52,633 bases of DNA from NCBI GenBank assembly GCA_946553095.1, contig CAMNRN010000002.1, positions 1-52,633 on the forward strand, in the 5' to 3' direction. How positions within the stretch are numbered: the stretch's first letter is position 1; each line of letters begins with the position of its first letter. Below the pieces are notes generated by a model. The model was given only the letters and a program-made list of their open reading frames with translations. It was not told where the DNA came from and searched no databases. This stretch comes from an uncultured Mycoplasmatota bacterium (GTDB lineage Bacteria > Bacillota_I > Bacilli_A > RF39 > UBA660). Made by a program: the position numbers and the translations under genes. This document shows positions 2,884 to 27,992 of this stretch, piece by piece.

Positions 2884-4627
2884 TAATCTATCTAATACCG
2901 CTGTACCCAAATATTATGGTGAATTTAGAGACGCTGTAATCCGTGGTGAAACACCAGTTTGTGAAACAATATCTATGGAAATGAATCGAATAGATCAATT
3001 GATAGCAAATCCTGGTATATACTACGACTGTAATGCGGTTGAAGGATTTATAAGATATTGCGAAAGAGAATTAACGTTAACAGATGGAGAGGATTTAATA
3101 CTATTAGATTCTTTCAAACTTTGGGCTGAACAATTACTTGGTTGGTATTATTATGTTGAACGTAGTGTCTATGTTCCATCAGAAGATGGTAGAGCTGGAC
3201 ATTACGAGAATAGACGAATTAAAAAACGTCTTATAAATAAGCAATATTTGATTGTAGCGAGGGGTGCTGCAAAATCACAGTATGAATCTTATGTTCATAA
3301 CTATTTTTTGAATGTTGATACAACAACAACTCATCAAGTACATACTGCTCCTACAATGAAACAAGCTGAAGAGGTCTTATCACCTATTAGAACTGCTATA
3401 ACTAGATCTAGAGGTCCGTTGTTTCAATTCCTTACTGAAGGATCAATAAATAACACAACTGGATCTAAAATAAATAGAGTTAAGTTAGCATCTACCAAAA
3501 AGGGTATTGAAAATTTCTTAACCGGATCTTTATTAGAAATTAGACCGATGACTATAGACAAATTACAAGGTTTAAATAGCCGAATTAATTCTGTCGATGA
3601 ATGGTTATCTGGAGATATCAGAGAAGATGTTATAGGTGCGCTGGAACAGGGTGCTTCTAAGAATGATGACTATTTAATATTAGCCGTTAGTTCTGAGGGT
3701 ACAGTTCGTAATGGACCAGGTGATACAATAAAGATGGAGTTAATGGACATCCTAAAAGGAGAATACGTTAATCCACATGTATCTATATTTTGGTATAAAC
3801 TTGACAATTTGGATGAAGTTTCTGAACCAGATAAATGGGTCAAGGCTAATCCAAATATTGGTAAAACTGTTAGTTATGAAACATATCAGTTAGATGTTGA
3901 AAGAGCCGAAAAGGCCCCAGCAAACAGAAATGATATTTTAGCTAAAAGATTTGGTATACCAATGGAAGGTTATACTTATTTCTTTACTTATGAAGAAACA
4001 CTTCCTCATAGGAAAAGGGATTACTGGCAAATGCCTTGCGCTCTTGGAGCGGATTTATCACAAGGTGATGACTTCTGTGCATTTACCTTCTTATTTCCAC
4101 TTCCTAGAATGGCTTTTGGCATAAAAACCAGAAACTATATCAGTGAAAGGACATTAATGAAATTACAGCCAGCAATGAGAATAAAATATGAGCATTTTAT
4201 CAAAGAAGGTTCTCTAATAGTAATGGATGGCACTGTTCTTGATATGATGCAAGTATATGAAGATCTAGATGAACATATTATCGCTACCGGTTACGATATA
4301 CGAGCATTTGGATATGACCCATATAATGCGAAAGATTTCGTTGAGAGATGGGAAAGAGAAAATGGTCCATTTGGAATTGAAAAAGTTCCACAAGGTGCCA
4401 AAACAGAGTCAGTTCCTTTGGGTGAACTAAAGAAAATGGCTGAAGACAGGTTATTGATCTTCGATGAGGAATTAATGACATTTACTATGGGTAACTGTAT
4501 AACTCTAGAAGATACTAATGGTAACCGAAAACTTTATAAGAAACGTTACGATCAAAAAATAGACGCTGTTGCAGCTATGATGGATGCGTACATTGCTTAT
4601 AAGAATAATAGAGATGCGTTTGAATAG
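2873..4627 (+). CDS. terL: Terminase large subunit
   Basis: This 584-residue packaging motor and nuclease has a deviant Walker A, ARGAAKSQ (about residue 129), and a Walker B-like NSVDEW (about 240). The nuclease motif is LGADLSQGDD (about 392-398), and the closing acidic motif is KIDAVAAMMDAY (about 562-573). Length and motif order match phage large terminases of the HK97-associated group. It pumps DNA through the portal and cuts concatemers. It follows the HNH gene and precedes the portal gene, the classic order. The start overlaps the preceding gene, so translation is probably coupled. Confidence 0.95.
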   Translation: MVDSNLSNTAVPKYYGEFRDAVIRGETPVCETISMEMNRIDQLIANPGIYYDCNAVEGFIRYCERELTLTDGEDLILLDSFKLWAEQLLGWYYYVERSVYVPSEDGRAGHYENRRIKKRLINKQYLIVARGAAKSQYESYVHNYFLNVDTTTTHQVHTAPTMKQAEEVLSPIRTAITRSRGPLFQFLTEGSINNTTGSKINRVKLASTKKGIENFLTGSLLEIRPMTIDKLQGLNSRINSVDEWLSGDIREDVIGALEQGASKNDDYLILAVSSEGTVRNGPGDTIKMELMDILKGEYVNPHVSIFWYKLDNLDEVSEPDKWVKANPNIGKTVSYETYQLDVERAEKAPANRNDILAKRFGIPMEGYTYFFTYEETLPHRKRDYWQMPCALGADLSQGDDFCAFTFLFPLPRMAFGIKTRNYISERTLMKLQPAMRIKYEHFIKEGSLIVMDGTVLDMMQVYEDLDEHIIATGYDIRAFGYDPYNAKDFVERWERENGPFGIEKVPQGAKTESVPLGELKKMAEDRLLIFDEELMTFTMGNCITLEDTNGNRKLYKKRYDQKIDAVAAMMDAYIAYKNNRDAFE

Positions 4628-4666: not shown

Positions 4667-5956
4667 ATGGAAAATAATTTAGGATCACGTATTAAAAAAG
4701 CGTGGAACATATTTCTAAATCCAAACCTCTTTGTTAATTCTACTTCTGGTGGTTCTTATAGTAGACCAGATAGACCTAGATTAAGAAATCTCAATGAACG
4801 AACTATAATAACATCTGTTATAACAAAACTTGCAGTTGATGTTAGCACTATAGATATAATGCATTGTAAATTAGATGATAAAGATAGGTATAAAGATGTT
4901 CTTAATACTAAATTAAATGAACGTTTAACAATAGATGCAAATATCGATCAAACATCAAGAGCATTTATAAGAGATGTTGTTATGACAATGCTTGATGAAG
5001 GATGTGCAGCAATAGTGCCTGTTGACACTACGCTAGATCCTAACGATACGCAATCATATGAAATCGACAGTATGCGTGTCGGTAAGATTGTTGGTTGGTA
5101 TCCAAAACATGTCATGGTCAGTTTGTACAATGATAAAGTTGGATATAGACAAGACGTTTTAGTGCCTAAAAAGAATACAGCTATTATTGAAAATCCATTA
5201 TTTCCAGTAATGAATGAATCCAATTCAACTTTAAAAAGACTTACTAGAAAACTAGCGTTACTAGATGTTATAGATGAACAAAGTGGATCTGGTCGATTAG
5301 ATTTGATTATTCAATTGCCTTACACTGTTAAATCCGAGGCAAGAAGAAGTCAAGCTAATCAAAGAAGAGACGAAATTGAACAACAGTTAAGAGGTACCAA
5401 ATATGGTATTGCTTATACTGATGGTACTGAAAAGATTACTCAGTTAAATCGTCCTGTTGAAAATAATCTGATGAAACAAATCGAATATTTAACGAGCATG
5501 CTTTATAGCCAGTTATGTATTTCGCAGACCGTTTTAGATGGTACGGCAGACGAGAAAACCATGAATAATTATTATACTAGAACCGTTGAACCTATTATTA
5601 CATCTATTGTTGATGAAATGAATAGGAAGTTCATTAGTAAAACTGCTAGGACTCAAAAACAAAAGATTTTATTCTTTAGAGATCCATTTAAGTTAGTTCC
5701 TGTAAGTCAAGTAGCTGAAATAGCTGATAAATTTACAAGAAATGAAATCTTGTCTTCTAATGAGGTTAGACAAGTTATAGGACGTAAACCATCAGACGAT
5801 CCTAAGGCAGATCAACTTATAAATAGTAATATATCTCAAGCTAAGACTGATGTCCAAGCTAATCAAACTCCTACTGCACCAACTTCTGGTGAGGAATCTG
5901 ATAAAAAGACTGATACAATTTATGGTAACCTGCCTAAAGAAGAATCAGATACATAA
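4667..5956 (+). CDS. Portal protein
   Basis: The 429-residue protein sits between the large terminase and the protease-capsid gene, with the length and features of HK97-type portals. It has the early NERTIITSVITKLAVDVS helix, an alpha/beta core and the region ERTKYGIAYTDGTEKI-like near the middle. Then comes a long clip/stem helix (LTSMLYSQLCISQTVLDGTA) and a flexible polar C-terminus. It forms the dodecameric DNA channel at one capsid vertex. The start follows AGGGAGGATTC with the A-rich leader TTCAAAATGG, a pattern repeated before several late genes. Confidence 0.88.
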   Translation: MENNLGSRIKKAWNIFLNPNLFVNSTSGGSYSRPDRPRLRNLNERTIITSVITKLAVDVSTIDIMHCKLDDKDRYKDVLNTKLNERLTIDANIDQTSRAFIRDVVMTMLDEGCAAIVPVDTTLDPNDTQSYEIDSMRVGKIVGWYPKHVMVSLYNDKVGYRQDVLVPKKNTAIIENPLFPVMNESNSTLKRLTRKLALLDVIDEQSGSGRLDLIIQLPYTVKSEARRSQANQRRDEIEQQLRGTKYGIAYTDGTEKITQLNRPVENNLMKQIEYLTSMLYSQLCISQTVLDGTADEKTMNNYYTRTVEPIITSIVDEMNRKFISKTARTQKQKILFFRDPFKLVPVSQVAEIADKFTRNEILSSNEVRQVIGRKPSDDPKADQLINSNISQAKTDVQANQTPTAPTSGEESDKKTDTIYGNLPKEESDT

Positions 5957-11015: not shown

Positions 11016-14000
11016 TGGCTACTACAATAGATCAAAAAGTAGTTGAGATGAAGTTTGATAATAAAGATTTTGAAAGAAATACAAGACAAACAATGTCCAC
11101 TCTTGATAAACTTAAAGCTAAACTTCATTTTAAAGGTGCTTCTAATGGATTAGAGGAAGTTGGTAAAGCTGCTAGAAAAGTTAATATGAATGGTCTAGCC
11201 GATAGTATACAAACTGTAAGTGCTAAATTTAGTGCTATGGAAATTATCGGTACAACAGCGTTGGTTAATATAACTAATAGCGCGGTTAATGCTGGTAAAC
11301 GAATGGTTTCATCTATAAGTTTCGATCAGATAGCTTCTGGTTGGAATAAGATGGGTCAACAGATGTCATCTATGCAAACTCTAATGAATTCTACAGGTAA
11401 AGGTATAGAAGAAATCGAAGGATACTTAGACGAGTTAATGTGGTATTCAGATGAAACTTCATATAGCTTTACTGATATGACAGCTGCATTAGCAAACATG
11501 ACAGCTACTGGAGGTCAAATAGAGAAGTTAGTACCTATGATTATGGGTATGGCTAATGCTACTGCTTATGCTGGTAAGGGTGCGGCTGAATTTAGTAGAG
11601 TTATCTATAACTTAAACCAATCTTATGGTGGTGGATACTTAACTTTAATGGACTGGAAATCTGTTAAGTTGGCAGGAGCAAATTCTAAACAATTAACAGA
11701 ATCATTAATTCATTGGGGTGAAGCGTTAGGAACTATTAAGAAAGGTCAAGTTTCAATTGCAAATTTTGACGATACTTTAAAAGATAAATGGGTAACAACT
11801 CAAGTAATGGAAAAAGCATTTGGAGAATTTGCCGATTTTACTTTAAAGGTTAAGGAAGCAGTTGATTCTGGTAAATATGATACAGCTTCAGAAGCAATTG
11901 ATGCTTTAGCTGGAGGTTATGAAGGAATAAGTAAGGACGCATTTAAAGCCGCACAAGAAGCAAAAAGTTTTTCGGAAGCGATTGATGCAACCAAAGATGC
12001 AGTTTCTTCTAAGTGGATGCAAGTATTTAAAACTATATTTGGTAATTATAATGAACAAAGACAGTTATGGACTGATTTAGCTAATAGTTTATGGGAAATA
12101 TTTGCTGAACCAGTTGAAAAGCTAAATTCGTATTTACAGAAAGCTTTAGGATTTACCGCTATTAAAGAAGTGTGGGATAAAATTAATAATAATCCTATGA
12201 TCCAAGCTATTAAAGAAGTAGATGGAGCTATAAAGAAAAGCTCTAGATCATTAGAAGAATATCAAGCTATAGTTAAAAAAGTATGGCGAGGAGATTTCAA
12301 TAATAGAGGAGATAATCCAGATAGATTTGATTTGCTATCACAAGCTGGATGGGATCCTAGAGTTGTTCAATCGTTGGTTAACAAAACTGATGAAATGGCA
12401 GGACACGGAAAAGGTTGGACTGTAATTGACAAATTAACAATTGATGATGTAACAGCTGCAGAACAGAAATATGGTATTCAAGTTGATAAGACAACCATGT
12501 CTGTAAAAGAACAGCAAAAAGCTCAAAAAGCTTTAGATAAATTAACAGATGATTATTTAAGAGATACCTGTGATTTAACAGAAACTCAAATAGAATTATA
12601 TCATGATTTGGTTGCTGCTTCTCGTAAGTATGGAATTTCTATTGATGAAATAATTAAGAAAATGGAAACAACTAATGGTCGCCAACATTTAGAAGGTTCT
12701 TGGAGAGAAATAGGTACAATAATTAAAGAAACTTTAGGTGCTATAGGCAAGGCATTTGGAGAAGTATTTCATTTCAATCCAATTAATTTATATTTATCAT
12801 TAGAAAAATTACATGAAAAATTAATTCATATAAGAGAAGTCTTAATCGGTAAATGGATCGAAAAAGATGGCGAAAAGGTAATGGAATATTCTAAACATTA
12901 TCAAAATCTTGTTGATACTCTTAAAGGATTTATATCTATACTTAAATTAGCAGGAACGATTGTTGGTGGAGGATTTAAAATTGCTTTAACAATAGTTAAT
13001 ACAATTCTTAAAACTTTCGGTTTAACAGTATTAGATGTAACAGGGGCAATAGGTAATGTTGTAAGTGAACTTGTTGCTTGGATAGAAGAAAATGAATTTA
13101 TATTAAAAGGTATCCAATGGCTTGTAACAACATTGATGGGCGGTCTAAGTAAATTATGGGATTGGGCTGACGCACAATGGGGTGTAAATAAAGCCGTTAA
13201 AGCATTTTTATCAATATTAAAAAGTGGAAAGAACGGTCTTAAAACATGGATCGAAGGTCTTATGGCTGCTGATGATGTTGGAGAATACTTAGCAGATACT
13301 TTTGGTAAAATACCAGCAAAAGTAAAAGAATTATGGAATGCATTTAAACAAACCAAAATAGGTCAAGTTATACTTGGTTGGTGGGACGCTATAAAGAAAT
13401 CTGATTTCGGAAAAGCTATAGCTGGATGGATTAATGATCTTAAAAACCTAGATTTTATTCAGGATTTAAAGAATTATTTTAATTCATTTGATACTGGTTC
13501 TATAGGAAAAAATATAATGCTTGGTCTATGGGAAGGTATTAAAAAATATGGTAAGATAGCAGTCGATGGAATTAAGAATTTTGGTTTATGGTTGCTTGAA
13601 GGAATAAAGAAGGTATTAGGTATTCATTCACCTTCTGTTGAATTCTTTGAAATTGGTAAGAATATAGTTCTTGGTTTATTCAATGGTATTAAATCTATTA
13701 TTGGAATGGTTTATACACTAATAACAACGGTTGGCGGAAAGATAATAGAGATAATAAAAGATTTTGATATCGGTTCGGTTTTTGTAGCATTAGTTAGTGC
13801 TGGAGCCATATTCGGTTTAGTGAAATTAGCTCAAGCGTTAAACATATTAGCTGGTGGATTACAAAATATAAATGCTGTTATTGGAGAATTTGCTGGTGTA
13901 TTGAAAGCATTTAAGAGCGTATTAAAAGCATTTAAAGTTAAATTAATAACTTCTGCCATGAAAGATTTTGCAATATCAGTTGCAATATTAACGGCGTCAA

Positions 14001-17791: not shown

Positions 17792-20410
17792 ATGGCAATG
17801 GAAGGCGATAAATGGCGTGTTCGGAGAGGCGATTGTCTTTGGAATATTGCTAAAACTGTTTACAAAAATCCATATAAATGGACTCTAATTGCTGATTATA
17901 ATGGTGTAAGTCGTAAAACAGCATTAATATATCCAGGTCAATTATTTACTCTTCCTGGTATAACAGCTGGTACAAATGGAGGAGGAGCGTCTACTCCTGC
18001 TCCAACACCAGTATCAAATAAAGTAACTATACAATGGTGGGCCCTTGATGCTGGTACAGATAAAGACATGTTTTGTACTTGGACATTCAACAGAGAACAT
18101 ACCGCTGGATACAATATAGAAGTATGGTATGATACAGGATCTGGCGGATGGCGAAATCAAGTAAAAGATACTAATACGACATTACAACAATATGGTTTTA
18201 CAGCTAATGCAAGTGCTAAAAAAGTAATGTTGAAAATAAAGCCATACTCAACAACACATAAAGTTGGCAACAATGAAGTCAATTGGTGGACAGATGGACA
18301 ATGGGTCGAAGTTATTTATGACTTTTCTAATAATCCACCGCTTATTCCATCTACACCAACTGTTGTTTTGGATTCAAATACTGGAAAGTTAACTTGTTCG
18401 TTAAGTAATATTTCAGAAGATATTAATGGAAATCAAATAGAATTTGTAGTTTATAAGGATAATACTTATAAATACAAATCTGGTATTGGTAATATTAACG
18501 CTGAGACCAGACATGTTAGTTTTACATTCGATGTTGAACCGGGTGGTTCTTATACAGTAAAATGTAGAGCTATTAGAAATGGGAACATCTATAGTAACTG
18601 GTCTGATTATACAGATTCTATAAAAACTATTCCTTTAGCACCTACTGCTATTACAGAATTAAGACCACAAGTTATAAGCGAACAGGGTAGTAAACAATAT
18701 GGGGTTTATATAGAATGGACTCCTGTTGATACTGCTAAAAATTATGAAATTCAATATACTACAGATCCAACTTACTTTGATGTATCAAGTAATGTTGAAT
18801 CGGTTACTACTGATGAAACTCAAGGTAATAAAATGCTTATTACTGGAATTGAGTTAGGTCATGAGTATTTCTTTAGAGTTAGATCAATAAATGACTCTGG
18901 TAATTCTGGATGGACACCAATTAAATCTACAAAATTAGGAAGTAGACCTTCTGCTCCTACAACTTGGTCTAATACTCAGAATTGTATTACAACAGAGATT
19001 TTAAGACTTTATTGGACACATAATTCTACAGATGGTTCATTAGAATCACTTGCTAGAATACACTTTACAATAACAAATACTATGCATCCAGAACTTCCAC
19101 CAAATGAAATAATAAAAACTATTAGAAACGATAGACCCGAAGAAGATAAAGGTAAAACAAGTGTCTTTGAACTAAATCCTCAAGATTCTAGTTGGGGTTT
19201 ATCTGAAGGTTGTATTATTAAATGGAAGGTTCAAACCGCTGGTGTAGTTGAGGAATATTCCGATTGGTCAATTGAACGCGAAATAAACGTTTATGTTCAA
19301 CCAGAGGTAGCGGTTGATATAAAAAATCAAAATGGACAATCTATGAATGAAGTTAGTTCGTTTCCTTTCTATATCAACGTTCTTGCCACTCCACCATCTC
19401 AAATTCCTATAAGTTATTATGTAGAAATAATAGCTAATCAAGGATATGAAACAGTAGATGATGTTGGTAAACGATTAGTAGTCAATCAAGGAGACAAAGT
19501 ATATCAAAAATACTTTGATCCTACTGATAGTGCATGGGAGTTTATGTTAGAGATGACTCCTGGAAATATAGATCTTATGAGCGGAATAAGTTATACTGTA
19601 AATTGTACAGTAGCAATGAATTCTGGTCTTACAGCATCTAATTCTACAACTTTTGATGTTATATGGAATGATTTATTCTATGAAGTTGGAGCTAATATTA
19701 TTCTAAATAAAGATACTTTAGAAGCAAGTATTAATCCTTATTGTAATGAATTTTACACAGACGAAGCATCTGGAGAAATTTTACCAAAACTTACAGAAAA
19801 TTGTACTTTATCAGTTTATAGAAGAGAATATGATGGATCATTTACTTTAATAGCTGAAGGAATAGATAATAGTGAAAATACGTATGTTATCGATCCTCAC
19901 CCAGCTTTAGACTATGCTCGTTATCGTGTTACAGCTATTAGTAAGGATACTGGATCGATTAGTTTCGGAGACATTAAAGCTGTTAAATTTGGAGAACCAT
20001 CATTGGTAATTCAATGGGCAGAAGAATGGACTAAATTTGAAACTACAAATGAGGAATTAGAAGAACCAGTTTATGCAGGATCAATGATCAAAATTCCTTA
20101 TAATGTAGACATATCAGAAAGTGCTAAAATTGATGTCGAGAAAATTGATTATGTTGGACGTCAACATCCTGTTAGTTACTATGGTACGAAAACTAATGAA
20201 TCATTTACAGGTAATGTGGAAATTCCTAGAGAAGATACTAACCTTATATATGATTTAAGAAGACTTGCTAAGTATGCTGGAGATGTTTACGTACGTGAAC
20301 CTTCTGGTATTGGTTATTGGGCGACTATTACAGTTTCATTTAGTTTGAAACATAATGCTGTAACAGTTCCAGTAACATTTAATATTACACGTGTGGAAGG
20401 AGGAATTTAA
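17792..20410 (+). CDS. Tail protein with N-terminal LysM and fibronectin-type domains
   Basis: The 872-residue protein starts with a LysM-like domain (residues about 7-55: WRVRRGDCLWNIAKTVY ... LIYPGQLFTLP). It continues with several beta-sandwich modules. At least two look like fibronectin type III (about 285-385 ending GNSGWTPIKST, and the preceding module around 190-280). In siphophages of this group the gene after the tape measure encodes a distal-tail component, and LysM can bind peptidoglycan. The start has GAAAGGAGAG. Order and domains are visible; the exact tail position is inferred. Confidence 0.75.
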   Translation: MAMEGDKWRVRRGDCLWNIAKTVYKNPYKWTLIADYNGVSRKTALIYPGQLFTLPGITAGTNGGGASTPAPTPVSNKVTIQWWALDAGTDKDMFCTWTFNREHTAGYNIEVWYDTGSGGWRNQVKDTNTTLQQYGFTANASAKKVMLKIKPYSTTHKVGNNEVNWWTDGQWVEVIYDFSNNPPLIPSTPTVVLDSNTGKLTCSLSNISEDINGNQIEFVVYKDNTYKYKSGIGNINAETRHVSFTFDVEPGGSYTVKCRAIRNGNIYSNWSDYTDSIKTIPLAPTAITELRPQVISEQGSKQYGVYIEWTPVDTAKNYEIQYTTDPTYFDVSSNVESVTTDETQGNKMLITGIELGHEYFFRVRSINDSGNSGWTPIKSTKLGSRPSAPTTWSNTQNCITTEILRLYWTHNSTDGSLESLARIHFTITNTMHPELPPNEIIKTIRNDRPEEDKGKTSVFELNPQDSSWGLSEGCIIKWKVQTAGVVEEYSDWSIEREINVYVQPEVAVDIKNQNGQSMNEVSSFPFYINVLATPPSQIPISYYVEIIANQGYETVDDVGKRLVVNQGDKVYQKYFDPTDSAWEFMLEMTPGNIDLMSGISYTVNCTVAMNSGLTASNSTTFDVIWNDLFYEVGANIILNKDTLEASINPYCNEFYTDEASGEILPKLTENCTLSVYRREYDGSFTLIAEGIDNSENTYVIDPHPALDYARYRVTAISKDTGSISFGDIKAVKFGEPSLVIQWAEEWTKFETTNEELEEPVYAGSMIKIPYNVDISESAKIDVEKIDYVGRQHPVSYYGTKTNESFTGNVEIPREDTNLIYDLRRLAKYAGDVYVREPSGIGYWATITVSFSLKHNAVTVPVTFNITRVEGGI

Positions 20411-23634: not shown

Positions 23635-25386
23635 ATGGCAAGTATATATATGGGTAGATTTAACGGTTTAAATGGAAACAGTAATTATGGTAGTTATAAC
23701 GTTTATTTCAATTATAATTCTAATGGAACTACATTAACCGATATGTCTATATCATTCGCAGATGCTACTGGTAATGGAAAATACACCACAAATTCTATGT
23801 GGCTTGCAGATGTCAGTGTTGCTGGACAAAAACCAGGTTTTGATTCATCTAAACAAAAAGGTTATGTTAATGGTGGAAAAGTATACAACTGGTCTAGAAG
23901 TATATATGGTTCTATAAATGCCGGAGGGACTAGTGCTTACATATGGGTAAGAATCTATAGATCTGGTAATACATATACTGATTTGGATTGTACTGTAACT
24001 GGTTTAGCCACACCACCTACAGGTGTTTGGTGTAGTGCTAGTGCCGCAAGTGAAACTGGTATTAATCTATCTGGAGGATATTCATCAAATGGTGGTGCTG
24101 GTGTAACCGGTACACAATTCCAGTATTATACGGTAGGTGGTAGCTGGACTAATTGTGGTTCATCGTTAACTGGTTTATCAGCTAACACAACTTATTATTT
24201 TAGAGTTGGATACACTAATGCTGCTGGTACTAGTTGGTCTGGTGAAACGTCAGCAACTACATATGATTACCCAAAACCAACTTCTTTAAATGATGTAACA
24301 ATTGGTGGGGCTATAACTACCGAGATATACAATCCACTTAAACGAGCTATAACTATAGGTTTCTATGATAGTGGAGGAACACTATTATTTAGTAGAACAT
24401 CATCGGCAAATGGATCTCATAGTTATACACCAACAACCGCAGAATACGATAAATTTTATGCGCGTATACCGAATGATAAACGGGGTTCATATTATGTTAA
24501 GGTCACATATGGATCTTCTAATAAGACTTACGGAAATAGAACATATTCAATAAAGAATACAGAGAACCCAGTATTTGATAGTTCATATATTATTAATGTA
24601 GTTAATACAAAGCACACAGATATAGCTGGTAGTAGTAAATTTATTAGTGGACATAATACCTTATCTGGTTCTATTAAGCCGATGATTCCACAAAAGTCGG
24701 CAAATGGTAGTAAGTATAGTTTATCCACATCTGGACAAACTCAAGAAAAAACTTTCTCAACTAGTAATATTCCGTTCACATTTAATGATATAACAAATAA
24801 TACTTTAAGTATAACAGCCCAGGATTCAAGAGGTTTAACAAAACAAGCATCTGTAACTTTAGATATAGTTGCTTATAATAAACCATCGGTTAGTAGTTAT
24901 ACATTAGTTAGACAGAATGGTACCGGCACTCATGCTATTTGGAATGTTACCGGAGTATATACCAACTGGACTGGGCTAACCAAATCAAATACTATAAAGA
25001 AAGTTGAATGGAGATGGAAACCTAATACAACATCTGGAACGTGGTCCAATTGGGCTGATATTACTTCAAGTCTGGCTACGAACGCTAATGGAGTATGGAA
25101 AGTTTCAATTATCCCATCACAAACGTTTAATAATGCTTCTGAATTCTTATTGCAATTGAGAGTTACAGATATGTTAGAAACGGTAGAAATGTCAGAAATG
25201 ACTTTATCTACAGCCAATGCTTTTATATGGAAAGATTTAGCTAATAAAAGAGTTGGTATTAATAAAAAACCTACTGAAGCATTAGATGTCGCTGGTAATA
25301 TAAAAGGTAGCGGTAATGTCGAAGCACCAAATATCAAAGGCAATGCTTTATATATTAATGGTATTAAAATGCTTTGGTATGAATAA
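23635..25386 (+). CDS. DUF859-like siphovirus minor structural (receptor-binding) protein
   Basis: The 583-residue Gly/Ser/Thr/Tyr-rich beta protein resembles the DUF859 family of Streptococcus-type siphophage minor structural proteins. It has an N-terminal beta module rich in Asn and Gly. A fibronectin-like module follows (about 120-215, TTYYFRVGYTNAAGTSWSG), then several Ig-like repeats. The C-terminal signature KRVGINKKPTEALDVAGNIK is common at the ends of tail fibres. It likely contacts the host surface. The start has GGGAGGTG and the TCAAAATGG leader. Confidence 0.7.
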   Translation: MASIYMGRFNGLNGNSNYGSYNVYFNYNSNGTTLTDMSISFADATGNGKYTTNSMWLADVSVAGQKPGFDSSKQKGYVNGGKVYNWSRSIYGSINAGGTSAYIWVRIYRSGNTYTDLDCTVTGLATPPTGVWCSASAASETGINLSGGYSSNGGAGVTGTQFQYYTVGGSWTNCGSSLTGLSANTTYYFRVGYTNAAGTSWSGETSATTYDYPKPTSLNDVTIGGAITTEIYNPLKRAITIGFYDSGGTLLFSRTSSANGSHSYTPTTAEYDKFYARIPNDKRGSYYVKVTYGSSNKTYGNRTYSIKNTENPVFDSSYIINVVNTKHTDIAGSSKFISGHNTLSGSIKPMIPQKSANGSKYSLSTSGQTQEKTFSTSNIPFTFNDITNNTLSITAQDSRGLTKQASVTLDIVAYNKPSVSSYTLVRQNGTGTHAIWNVTGVYTNWTGLTKSNTIKKVEWRWKPNTTSGTWSNWADITSSLATNANGVWKVSIIPSQTFNNASEFLLQLRVTDMLETVEMSEMTLSTANAFIWKDLANKRVGINKKPTEALDVAGNIKGSGNVEAPNIKGNALYINGIKMLWYE

Positions 25387-25408
25387 ATTCAAAATGGAGG
25401 AATTTAAA

Positions 25409-25600
25409 ATGAAAAAAATATTAAATAGAAATGGGGGAGGGGCAAAACTATTAAGTAGCCCTTCTCCTGAAGGAATTCTATATTATAATCACCTCTTAAA
25501 ATCGGGGGGGGGGGTGCACAGAATAATTTATGTGCCTCTTTTAACGATTTTAGAGGACTCTATACCAAGTTTGGAGGTGAGCGTTATAACTTACGCTTAA
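25409..25600 (+). CDS. Small ORF with an 11-G tract, probably frame-shifted version of a 73-residue protein
   Basis: Behind GGAGGAA, ATG 25409 opens a 63-residue frame that passes through GGGGGAGGGG (25432-25441) and an uninterrupted run of 11 G (25504-25514). As written, the frame after the tract ends at 25600. With one extra G the frame instead continues GAQNNLCASFNDFRGLY, then YTKFGGERYNLRL, and stops at 25627-25629, overlapping the start of the next gene (ATGTCTAA). A related small ORF with TKQGGERR precedes the next fibre paralogue (27033-27173), which supports the longer frame as the real protein. The function is unknown. Confidence 0.55.
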   Translation: MKKILNRNGGGAKLLSSPSPEGILYYNHLLKSGGGVHRIIYVPLLTILEDSIPSLEVSVITYA

Positions 25601-25621
25601 CCTCTAATGAGGTGTCATATT

Positions 25622-26038
25622 ATGTCTAATCCAAGAATTAATCAAGATTTAATGATTGGCGAAAGCGATGTAACATTAGCGGATATTAATTATACAAGGA
25701 CCAAACTAAATAATGCTAATTTAAAATTCAAATCGCAAACAAATTATGTTGATGATATGGGACCAGATACAAATTATCAAATACCCTATCCAAATGGAGA
25801 ACCTATATTTGTAGAACCGTTATTTAAAATGGCTGGTACAGATTTTTCTGGTGGTCATTTCGTAATACCAGGATCATCATTCACATATATTCCATGTAAA
25901 GAACAACCAGGAAGTGGTTATACGGGGGTATATGTGTTTTGTTCATCCAATTTATATATATCAATATCAGCCTATTGTCATTGTGGCAATACTATTAAAG
26001 GCTTTAGAACATGGTATTTAGACAAATATGACTCTTGA
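25622..26038 (+). CDS. Fibre-like protein A of the receptor-binding module
   Basis: The 138-residue protein begins with INQDLMIGESDVTLADINY, paralogous to the start of the gene at 27170 (INENTEIGNTGITLKELL). The rest is beta-rich with an aromatic Gly-Ser pattern (GGHFVIPGSSFTYIP, YTGVYVFCSSNLYISI). It probably forms part of a variable tail-tip adhesin. The start lies inside the stop region of the alternative frame of the preceding small ORF (ATGTCTAA), a coupling arrangement seen again at 27170. GAGGTG lies ten bases before the ATG. Confidence 0.5.
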   Translation: MSNPRINQDLMIGESDVTLADINYTRTKLNNANLKFKSQTNYVDDMGPDTNYQIPYPNGEPIFVEPLFKMAGTDFSGGHFVIPGSSFTYIPCKEQPGSGYTGVYVFCSSNLYISISAYCHCGNTIKGFRTWYLDKYDS

Positions 26039-26054
26039 GTTATAACTTAAATTA

Positions 26055-26525
26055 ATGGAATTAAAATGTTCTGATGATTTAAAAAAGTTATTCTTAGATT
26101 TTGCTTATCCGATAGGTAGTGTATATATGACCAGAACTAATAACGATCCAAATGAATTATTTGGTGGAACTTGGGTTAGGAATAATAATGCCTATATTTA
26201 TGCTTGCTCAGGAGATATCACAGATGGATATCAAGGAAATGGTAATATAACTAGACCGTCGTCTGGAAACACGGGGAGTACTATATTAACCATTGATCAA
26301 ATCCCATCACATACGCATGCTATAAAATCAGGTTACGGCGGTGAAGATAATATAGCTTATGATAGTTATAGATATCAATATTGGGGACATTATTCAAATG
26401 GATGGAAAAGTGGTGACTTAGGAACAGGCGCAAATGGCGGCGGAAAGGGTCATACTCATACATTAGGAGATCATACTCATACCATTCCATGGATAGGAGT
26501 ACATTTTTGGTATAGAACAGCATAA
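26055..26525 (+). CDS. Tail-collar-type baseplate/fibre protein, copy 1
   Basis: The 156-residue protein has the signature of phage collar/baseplate tip proteins. It contains FAYPIGSVYMTRTNNDPNELF, then GGTWVR, the core LTIDQIPSHTHAI, a Gly-rich loop (GTGANGGGKGHTHTLGDHTH) and a closing aromatic IGVHFWYR strand. It is paralogous to the next gene. No ribosome binding site is visible before the ATG, so the start is uncertain and coupling or a relic is possible. It likely belongs to the exchangeable receptor-binding set. Confidence 0.7.
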   Translation: MELKCSDDLKKLFLDFAYPIGSVYMTRTNNDPNELFGGTWVRNNNAYIYACSGDITDGYQGNGNITRPSSGNTGSTILTIDQIPSHTHAIKSGYGGEDNIAYDSYRYQYWGHYSNGWKSGDLGTGANGGGKGHTHTLGDHTHTIPWIGVHFWYRTA

Positions 26526-26541
26526 ATAATTCAAAATCAAA

Positions 26542-27000
26542 ATGGCTACATTAAAAGCTAGTTCGGATTTACAATCACTAATTAAAAAAATTGTTTTAGA
26601 TACATATTTTCCAGTTGGAAGTATATATCTTTCAGTTAATAAAACTAATCCTGGATCTACATTTGGTGGAACTTGGGAGTTAGTAACTAATGATTCATAT
26701 TTACATTGTTATAATCCTAATAATCAATGGTTTGCTAATATAGGTGTGAATAATAAGGGAACTGGTAATCAACAAGGAAGCTTCAATACTAATGATACAG
26801 TATTAACGATTGAACAATTACCGCCTCATACACATAATGCGAAACATTTAGCATCATTGCGAGGTAATAGTAATGGTTGGGCTGGTTCTCTTGGTACATT
26901 ATCTGGAGAAGTCACAGGTCCGATGGGATCTGCAAAGGGACATAGTCATTATCATGTCTTACCCTTTTACATAGTTGCTGTATGGAAAAGAATTAAATAA
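26542..27000 (+). CDS. Tail-collar-type baseplate/fibre protein, copy 2
   Basis: The 152-residue protein has the same plan as the previous one: YFPVGSIYLSVNKTNPGSTF, GGTWEL, LTIEQLPPHTHNA, a Gly/Ser region, then GHSHYHVLPFYIVAVWKR. The C-terminus is closer to the standard family ending than that of copy 1. The leader ATTCAAAATCAAAATGG matches the A-rich leader of other late genes but lacks the GGAGG part, so the ribosome binding site seems lost or the gene relies on coupling. Tandem duplication followed by divergence is the simplest reading. Confidence 0.75.
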   Translation: MATLKASSDLQSLIKKIVLDTYFPVGSIYLSVNKTNPGSTFGGTWELVTNDSYLHCYNPNNQWFANIGVNNKGTGNQQGSFNTNDTVLTIEQLPPHTHNAKHLASLRGNSNGWAGSLGTLSGEVTGPMGSAKGHSHYHVLPFYIVAVWKRIK

Positions 27001-27032
27001 TATAGAATTTACTTAAAAACTTGCCAAAATAT

Positions 27033-27173
27033 ATGATACAAAATATCTTAAGTCATATATATACGCAAGAATCGAGGTGGATCACAAGTAATTTATGGTC
27101 CACTAAACAAGGAGGCGAAAGGCGTTTAATATCTTATTCGTCTTTACCTCTTGGAAGCTGGTGTTATCTATGA
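27033..27173 (+). CDS. Small ORF with GGER motif, coupled to fibre-like protein B
   Basis: This 46-residue frame (MIQNILSHIY...) ends with TKQGGERRLISYSSLPLGSW and overlaps the next start as ATGA. The GGER region resembles the alternative-frame product of the small ORF at 25409, which also overlaps the next fibre gene. Conservation of the pair (small ORF plus fibre paralogue) is the main evidence that it is real; there is no good ribosome binding site. The stretch also folds into several hairpins at the RNA level, which is a rival explanation for conservation. Confidence 0.45.
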   Translation: MIQNILSHIYTQESRWITSNLWSTKQGGERRLISYSSLPLGSWCYL

Positions 27174-27592
27174 ATAGTCTTCATATCAATGAAAATACTG
27201 AAATAGGTAACACAGGAATAACTTTAAAAGAGTTATTAAATAAATTAAATGATAAAGCTGAGAATTCAGCGATAACATCTATAAATAACAATATTGAAAA
27301 TCTAACTACCATTACAAATAGGCTTAATACATATCGTTTTTATTATGGAACTGAACATTCTACAGATTATTGCAATGAAATGATACACAATGGAGTATAT
27401 TGGTGGGGACCAGAACATGCTAATCGACCAGGTTCACAATATGGAACAATGATCGTGGTTAATTCCACTGGTATTGAATATAATAAAATAAATAACTGGT
27501 GTAATCAATTAGCATTTGGAACTGATGGTGTTATATGGTTTAGACAAAGTATAAATGCTGGTCCATTTGGTAATTGGGTTAGAGTTAATTAA
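27170..27592 (+). CDS. Fibre-like protein B with pyocin-knob-like C-terminus
   Basis: The 140-residue protein opens with INENTEIGNTGITLKELLNKL, paralogous to the start of the gene at 25622. A short coiled coil (about 25-55) follows. The C-terminal domain resembles the pyocin-knob domain found at tail-fibre tips (NNWCNQLAFGTDGVIWFRQS, then AGPFGNWVRV). It probably binds the host surface. ATG 27170 overlaps the stop of the preceding small ORF. It ends seven bases before the GGAGGA site of the lysis block. Confidence 0.65.
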   Translation: MNSLHINENTEIGNTGITLKELLNKLNDKAENSAITSINNNIENLTTITNRLNTYRFYYGTEHSTDYCNEMIHNGVYWWGPEHANRPGSQYGTMIVVNSTGIEYNKINNWCNQLAFGTDGVIWFRQSINAGPFGNWVRVN

Positions 27593-27611
27593 AAAGGAGG
27601 AACTGAAAAGA

Positions 27612-27992
27612 ATGGATGCTTTTTGGCAATTTCTTAGTGCTGTCATAGTAGCTGGTATGGGTGTTATAACAGTGGTTATACAAACTAGAAATAAAAATAA
27701 GTTAGATAATCAAAAAACTTTACTTGATACAGTAAATGCAAATATTGCAGCTATGCGAAAAGAAAGTAAAGATGATGATGAAAAACTTAGTAAAAAGCTA
27801 GATACTCACGAACTAACCTCGCTGAAAAGATTCTTAGTAGATGAATTAGCAAAGATTAAAAACGGGGTTTATATCCCTACTGACAATCAGAAATCGTTAA
27901 TACACGAAGCTAAAAAAGAATACAATGATTTAGGCGGAGATAGTTACGTAGATGAAATGTTTGATGATTTAGTAGAAAAAGGTCTACTTTAA
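27612..27992 (+). CDS. Small membrane protein of the lysis block (holin-associated)
   Basis: The 126-residue protein has one N-terminal membrane segment (about 6-24, FLSAVIVAGMGVITVVIQ). A basic stop-transfer region and a charged helical coiled-coil domain (about 30-75) follow, with an acidic C-terminus. This layout resembles XhlA-type or holin-partner proteins. It lies directly before an SPP1-type holin and the endolysin, supporting a lysis role. ATG 27612 is chosen over the upstream in-frame codon because AAAAAGGAGGAA precedes it correctly. Confidence 0.55.
   Translation: MDAFWQFLSAVIVAGMGVITVVIQTRNKNKLDNQKTLLDTVNANIAAMRKESKDDDEKLSKKLDTHELTSLKRFLVDELAKIKNGVYIPTDNQKSLIHEAKKEYNDLGGDSYVDEMFDDLVEKGLL

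Follow-up and report, generated by a model that had tools for sequence, protein, structure and literature searches.

The run of 11 G residues at 25504-25514 (+) of the window, by which we mean the whole 52,633-nucleotide stretch of DNA that was analysed, is an instance of a recurring gut-phage design, in which a short repeat-bearing leader gene stands before tail-tip genes. The tract probably supplies the slippage-prone repeat of a phase-variable leader ORF, and this ORF probably controls the tail-tip gene that follows.

The G tract and leader ORF 1

The window is one entire contig (C2) of a 1,300,737-base assembly of 97 contigs, and its gene content is tailed-phage-like, with terminase, tape measure, tail fibres and a CHAP-LysM lysin. 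The G run is exactly 11 nt long, a length that was taken from the assembly and may be miscounted by one, and the second-longest G run within the window is 5 nt. No other G run in the window reached 8 nt, and the four G 8-mers observed were not equalled in any of 100 shuffles. When both strands of the whole assembly were searched for runs of at least 9 G, this tract was again the only one found. The tract is therefore not explained by chance composition, and it is a long simple repeat of the kind that marks simple-repeat (SSR) contingency genes. The features of the region are as follows.

23635-25386 (+), tail fibre or tail protein, 583 aa, ending ..YINGIKMLWYE (phrog_372, E=8.8e-27)
25396-25400 (+), Shine-Dalgarno (SD) sequence GGAGG of leader 1 (from the sequence)
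25409-25629 (+), leader ORF 1 (same place and layout as the leaders of other phages)
25433-25468 (+), hairpin A, GGGGGAGGGGC / GCCCTTCTCC (from folding)
25492-25556 (+), hairpin B, which encloses the G tract through G-C and G-U pairs with CTCTTTT (from folding)
25504-25514 (+), simple repeat G11 (proposed switch), part of the 5' arm of hairpin B
25571-25607 (+), hairpin C, TTGGAGGTGAGCGT / ACGCTTAACCTCTAA (from folding)
25601-25614 (+), anti-SD CCTC facing the downstream SD GAGGTG (CCTCTAATGAGG; from the sequence)
25622-25629 (+), ATGTCTAA, start of the next gene over the 9/12-G leader stop, 8 nt shared (from the computed repeat phases)
25622-26038 (+), proposed switched tail-tip gene, 138 aa (from its position)
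26055-26525 (+), Gp10_C collar/tip gene, without a clear SD (PF21939, E=1.2e-10)
26542-27000 (+), second Gp10_C collar/tip gene, without a clear SD (PF21939, E=1.8e-14)
27021-27173 (+), probable second leader ORF, ..TKQGGERRLISYSSLPLGSWCYL, without a clear SD (from the ATGA overlap, a shared motif and the fold)
27170-27592 (+), tail-tip gene, 140 aa, behind leader 2 (from its position)

The first-pass annotation had placed the 11-G run and the sequence GGGGGAGGGG inside a small gene at 25409 and had predicted where this gene would end with 9, 10, 11 or 12 G, and all of this was reproduced. The tract lies within the ORF as assembled (25409-25600, 63 aa) and GGGGGAGGGG lies at 25433-25442. The stop falls at 25526 with 10 G, at 25600 with 11 G and at 25629 with 9 or 12 G (72 or 73 aa), and in the last case it overlaps the next ATG (25622), as had been described. 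Relative to that start, the stops are at -95 (10 G), -21 (11 G) and +8 (12 G), and changes of a single G give distinct reading outcomes, as in SSR contingency genes. The motif FGGERYNLRLTSNEV is carried in the 9/12-G frame only and resembles GGERYLISSLPRGV of locus L324 and GGGYKYLVASREVML of locus L311. The short peptide motif GG-x-Y-L-x-S, which recurs in leaders, was found in the window leader only in the post-tract part of the 9/12-G frame.

Codon statistics favoured neither post-tract frame of leader 1. The scores of the pre-tract part and of both post-tract frames were about 2 SD below those of the phage's real genes and near those of shuffled sequence. No homologue of the leader 1 protein was found in IMG/VR, INPHARED, GTDB contigs or 386 host-family genomes. 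Similarity searches at the DNA level gave matches mainly at the ribosome-binding site and start among phages, and short AT-rich matches only among the host-family genomes. Since the window leader has no close relative, its membership in the group described below rests on position, layout, the phase rule, folding and the GG-x-Y-L-x-S motif.

The genes around the leader were also analyzed. Fibre-type genes stand 5' of the leaders in L149, L151, L197 and L276/L007 as well. Receptor-binding or fibre genes had been proposed downstream of the tract; collar/tip domains were recognised in the two Gp10_C (PF21939) genes, but not in the directly adjoining 138-aa gene, which had no Pfam or PHROGs family and no homologue in IMG/VR or INPHARED. 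The N-terminus of the 138-aa protein is weakly similar to that of the 140-aa tip gene at 27170 (BLASTP E=0.005). A PDB search with a Gp10_C gene returned nothing useful. The stop of leader 2 overlaps the start at 27170 by 4 nt (ATGA), its fold has z = -3.27, and it has a motif in common with L324 (FKGGERYLISSLPRGV). Leader 2 carries no long repeat and is apparently locked.

Leaders of other phages and prophages

Relatives of the terminase were abundant, and the tail-tip region was hypervariable among them. Their G tracts lie elsewhere in the genome and none is at the tail locus, so the idea of a conserved poly-G was dropped in favour of a conserved position with a variable repeat. The first-pass annotation had looked to relatives for the same tract; the tract itself is not conserved, but several relatives have a leader with TA, GA, AT, AGCA or G8 at this place.

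Loci were gathered in which the tail gene at 20391 has a relative (1.61 Mb, window included), and only eight simple repeats in them passed the thresholds. Three of the eight, namely the window G11, (TA)10.5 in L149 and (GA)10.5 in L197, are located within a short ORF between a fibre gene and the next tail-tip gene. The same leader layout, with GGGGGAGGGGC and without a longer repeat, was seen in L151, and L007/L276, from a host-family genome, has (TA)8.5 at the leader position. Host-family genomes searched for Gp10_C genes yielded L264 (G151:C36) and L263 (G307:C4), two related loci in MAGs labelled uncultured Bacilli, in which eight or nine stand-alone Gp10_C tip genes (MKLNIDFIYPVGSIYMS..) follow each other in tandem. 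Some of these tip genes are preceded by (AT)9-14 leaders, and no SD precedes most of the rest. The leader of L270 contains G8, and L303 and L311 have (TA)9.5 and (TA)13, respectively, each before small tandem tip-like genes. In L324 (CANRQF010000011.1), (AGCA)19 occupies positions 1-77 at the contig end, directly 5' of tail-tip genes. The break in this assembly was probably caused by the repeat, and counts of such leaders may therefore be too low.

Among the dinucleotide repeats listed (at least 6-7 units, about 2.1 Mb of loci), nine of the ten outside the window were in leaders directly before tail-tip genes. Repeat-bearing leaders are nevertheless a minority, and most phages of the window phage's lineage have none. 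A scan of viral contigs for (TA)7 followed by RAAGGAGG gave 16 loci, of which only L303 and L311 had the leader/array layout; the remaining ones look like chance.

The three repeat phases were computed for each leader. All repeat-bearing leaders computed had one phase whose stop lies within the next gene, by 4, 8 or 11 nt. The overlap is 8 nt in the window, L149, L276, L197 and L303, 4 nt in L264a, L264d/L263c, L270 and L311, and 11 nt in L264c/L263b. The remaining phases stop 12-216 nt upstream, except in L197, which has a further phase with its stop exactly at the start. The repeat-less leader of L151 also overlaps the next start, by 8 nt. When the sequence from repeat to start was shuffled, the probability of obtaining such an overlapping phase was 0.0008-0.18 per leader, and the product over eight leaders was 1.5e-10, a value that is optimistic because some start codons (L149, L197, L264c) were chosen by hand and three leaders come from one array. 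The assembled repeat lengths place L263c and L303 in the coupled phase; the window, L149, L276, L263b, the three L264 leaders, L270 and L311 are in other phases.

Repeat number was compared between the two arrays. Three homologous leaders had 14 and 10, 9 and 10, and 11 and 9 units in L263 and L264, respectively. All of these differences change the frame, and the flanks outside the repeat align almost without differences. The arrays are about 95% identical and their genomes are placed in different genera, so L263 and L264 may represent a single phage that was shared recently, and not two independent lineages.

Folding of the leaders was also investigated. The stretch of leader 1, with its three hairpins, was top-folding among 240-nt windows sampled along the phage (z=-5.6). 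The mean fold z of 14 leader segments, taken 3' of the repeat where possible, was -4.1, while that of 32 regions upstream of the window phage's other genes was -0.45. The exception among the 14 segments was L151, whose leader has the hairpin A motif AATAGAA..GGGGGAGGGGC. Typical leader hairpins have a GGAGG-like 5' arm and a C/U-rich 3' arm. The SD/anti-SD pair in the window amounts to 4 bp only; short CCTC-like elements near the tip-gene SD (CCTC/GAGG pairs) were found in several other leaders too. An Rfam search gave no match. The view that the stretch is simply a non-coding structured RNA was dropped once leaders with repeats and overlapping stops emerged.

The proposed switch and its alternatives

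We propose that slippage during DNA copying would add a G to the tract or remove one. With 9 or 12 G, and thus at every third length, ribosomes would traverse the hairpins and reach the stop 8 nt past the next start. Translation of the leader through the hairpins would unmask the SD, and the ribosome could begin again at the tail-tip gene (ON). At 10 or 11 G, ribosomes would leave 95 or 21 nt too early and the start would stay masked, giving less tip protein (OFF or low); 11 G is the assembled state. Different repeats are found at this position in related phages, some of which carry tandem alternative tip genes and several leaders of this kind. With several switchable leaders per array, the phages of one population would differ in their tip repertoires.

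The first-pass annotation had already proposed that a small ORF, coupled to a tail gene downstream of it, is switched by strand slippage, and the repeats of the relatives, their phases and the L263/L264 repeat lengths support this. In that proposal the tract varied a protein and possibly the downstream level; the second part is retained, but a mainly regulatory role, as a structured RNA/ORF, appears to fit the leader better than that of a varied structural protein.

An error of assembly or sequencing is unlikely to account for the data. On that account the true tract would be fixed at 12 (or 9) G, and the small ORF would be an ordinary constitutive gene that overlaps the next one. Homopolymer length errors are common in such data and the 9/12-G frame looks intended, but the equivalent leaders of other phages hold dinucleotide and tetranucleotide repeats, the repeat numbers of L263 and L264 differ between near-identical flanks, and 11-12 G is expected to be unstable even if its length was miscalled here. 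We give a limited chance to the same switch acting on transcription, with translation of the leader blocking a terminating hairpin, as in Pil1 (PMC3894217), instead of unmasking an SD and coupling. The short ORF, repeat, hairpins and adhesin-like genes do match that system, and purine/pyrimidine hairpins with U-rich trailing sequence are present in several leaders. However, a terminator scan, which covered loops of up to 8 nt and misses larger ones, found one weak site in the window leader (a 5-bp stem at 25460-25473 with the tail AATTCTATAT), none in the L276 leader and no convincing classical terminator in the leaders, and the recurrent stop-start overlaps of 4, 8 or 11 nt together with the anti-SD pairing favour translation.

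The recurrence of GG-x-Y-L-x-S across leader peptides would also fit a switch whose target is the small protein (a tip accessory or chaperone, for instance) rather than the downstream gene. We regard this as quite improbable, because the leader bodies are otherwise dissimilar and often consist of (IY)n from AT repeats, the coding statistics of the window leader are poor, one phase ends at the next start, and GG-x-Y-L-x-S coincides with GGAGG-containing hairpins. The hairpin-rich stretch could instead be mainly a recombination site for the exchange of tail-tip cassettes, with an incidental repeat; the tail-tip region is hypervariable between relatives, and the leaders of L263 and L264 are better conserved than some of their tip genes. 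Neither stops placed by frame over the next start nor a concentration of repeats in leaders is predicted by such a site, and this explanation is very improbable. A repeat-switched leader, probably acting on translation of the tail-tip gene, remains the preferred reading.

Under this reading, gain or loss of one repeat unit should switch the amount of tip protein and perhaps the bacteria to which the phage attaches, and so might alter host range. The prediction is explicit: every third repeat length would be ON, and this is readable from existing metagenomic reads. For gut phages of Bacilli and other Firmicutes, the chances seem evenly balanced that tandem alternative tips, some with hypermutable leaders switched independently, give each phage stock a combinatorial mixture of receptor specificities.

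Known systems and other tracts

Phages vary their host-recognition proteins by DNA inversion or by diversity-generating retroelements. If the proposal is true, a leader switched by repeat slippage would be a third and very compact route beside these two, and a virus-encoded counterpart of the phase-variable adhesin families of bacteria that can do without an invertase or a diversity-generating retroelement. Such a route would matter for the way in which gut phages keep pace with hosts that phase-vary their receptors. It is also a caution that apparent frameshifts at the tail loci of assembled phage genomes may be biology, not error.

The closest precedent, with experimentally proven logic, is Pil1/Pil3 of Streptococcus gallolyticus (GCAGA repeats; PMC3894217). 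Control of a surface adhesin by a repeat-switched leader is established for Pil1, where the output is transcription attenuation (PMC3894217). As in that system, the repeat of the window leader lies in a short leader ORF with its own ribosome-binding site (SD GGAGG, ATG at 25409), a stable hairpin lies around or downstream of the repeat, the genes that follow at the 3' side are surface-adhesin genes in Pil1/Pil3 and tail-tip genes here, and repeat number decides the end point of the leader. A ribosome-binding site and start codon are also clear in several of the other leaders. In contrast, Pil1 works by anti-termination at an intrinsic terminator of a bacterial pilus operon, whereas the genes here are phage tail-tip genes and classical terminators are not evident. 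The leaders described here also differ in that the repeat unit varies by leader, the stop of the predicted ON phase overlaps the next start, and several switches per array are possible.

Slipped-strand frame switching is likewise known from the SSR contingency genes of Campylobacter, Neisseria and Haemophilus, which have poly-G/C or tetranucleotide tracts. In those genes the repeat usually belongs to the switched gene or to its promoter, whereas here a leader in the tail-tip locus of the virus itself carries it. In phage biology the varying partner is normally the bacterial receptor (e.g. PMC10877375). Changes in poly-G length have been reported for Klebsiella phage MMNM, one of them frameshifting a hypothetical protein (PMC11633184); this protein is not a virion component, and the passage on these changes describes no leader or tail-tip control. 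The Gin system of Mu, Cin of P1 and the shufflons provide, as the proposed switch would, alternative tail-fibre specificities within one phage population, but they use a site-specific invertase and inverted sites, and the present loci show length polymorphism of short repeats. No inverted recombination sites were found in 25300-27700, where the inverted pairs detected were weak (16-24 nt, 71-88%). Our searches of the open literature did not turn up any report of repeat-switched leaders before phage tail-tip genes.

Several other homopolymer tracts were observed in the loci and genomes collected. In L098/L230 (IMGVR_UViG_3300027904_000033, 19445-19455), a C11 tract on the coding strand shifts a 149-aa gene out of frame, and 9 or 12 C would restore the frame. 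This gene has the motif HYGVKGMKWGVRK and adjoins the terminase, and a second tract, G8, lies about 770 nt away at the start of a similar gene. L345, from the cultured isolate Gemmiger formicilis MCC627, has C11 at 4385-4395 and G8 at 4776-4783, each close to the start of a small ORF; the two ORFs follow a Gp10_C-like gene and are short as assembled, and another phase would open 122 and 306 aa. In L282 (G122:C38), a putative lipoprotein gene is preceded by TTGACA and TATACT with a spacer of 19 nt, and G10 at 11136-11145 lies within this spacer. Judged from this arrangement it looks like a phase-variable promoter spacer, here in a host-family genome. G11 at 1501-1511 of L094 and C10 at 1501-1510 of L096 are near the terminase side of two relatives and close to CCCCGG..TTTT motifs that resemble the window's first 40 bases, and this DNA could be an end or packaging-site sequence.
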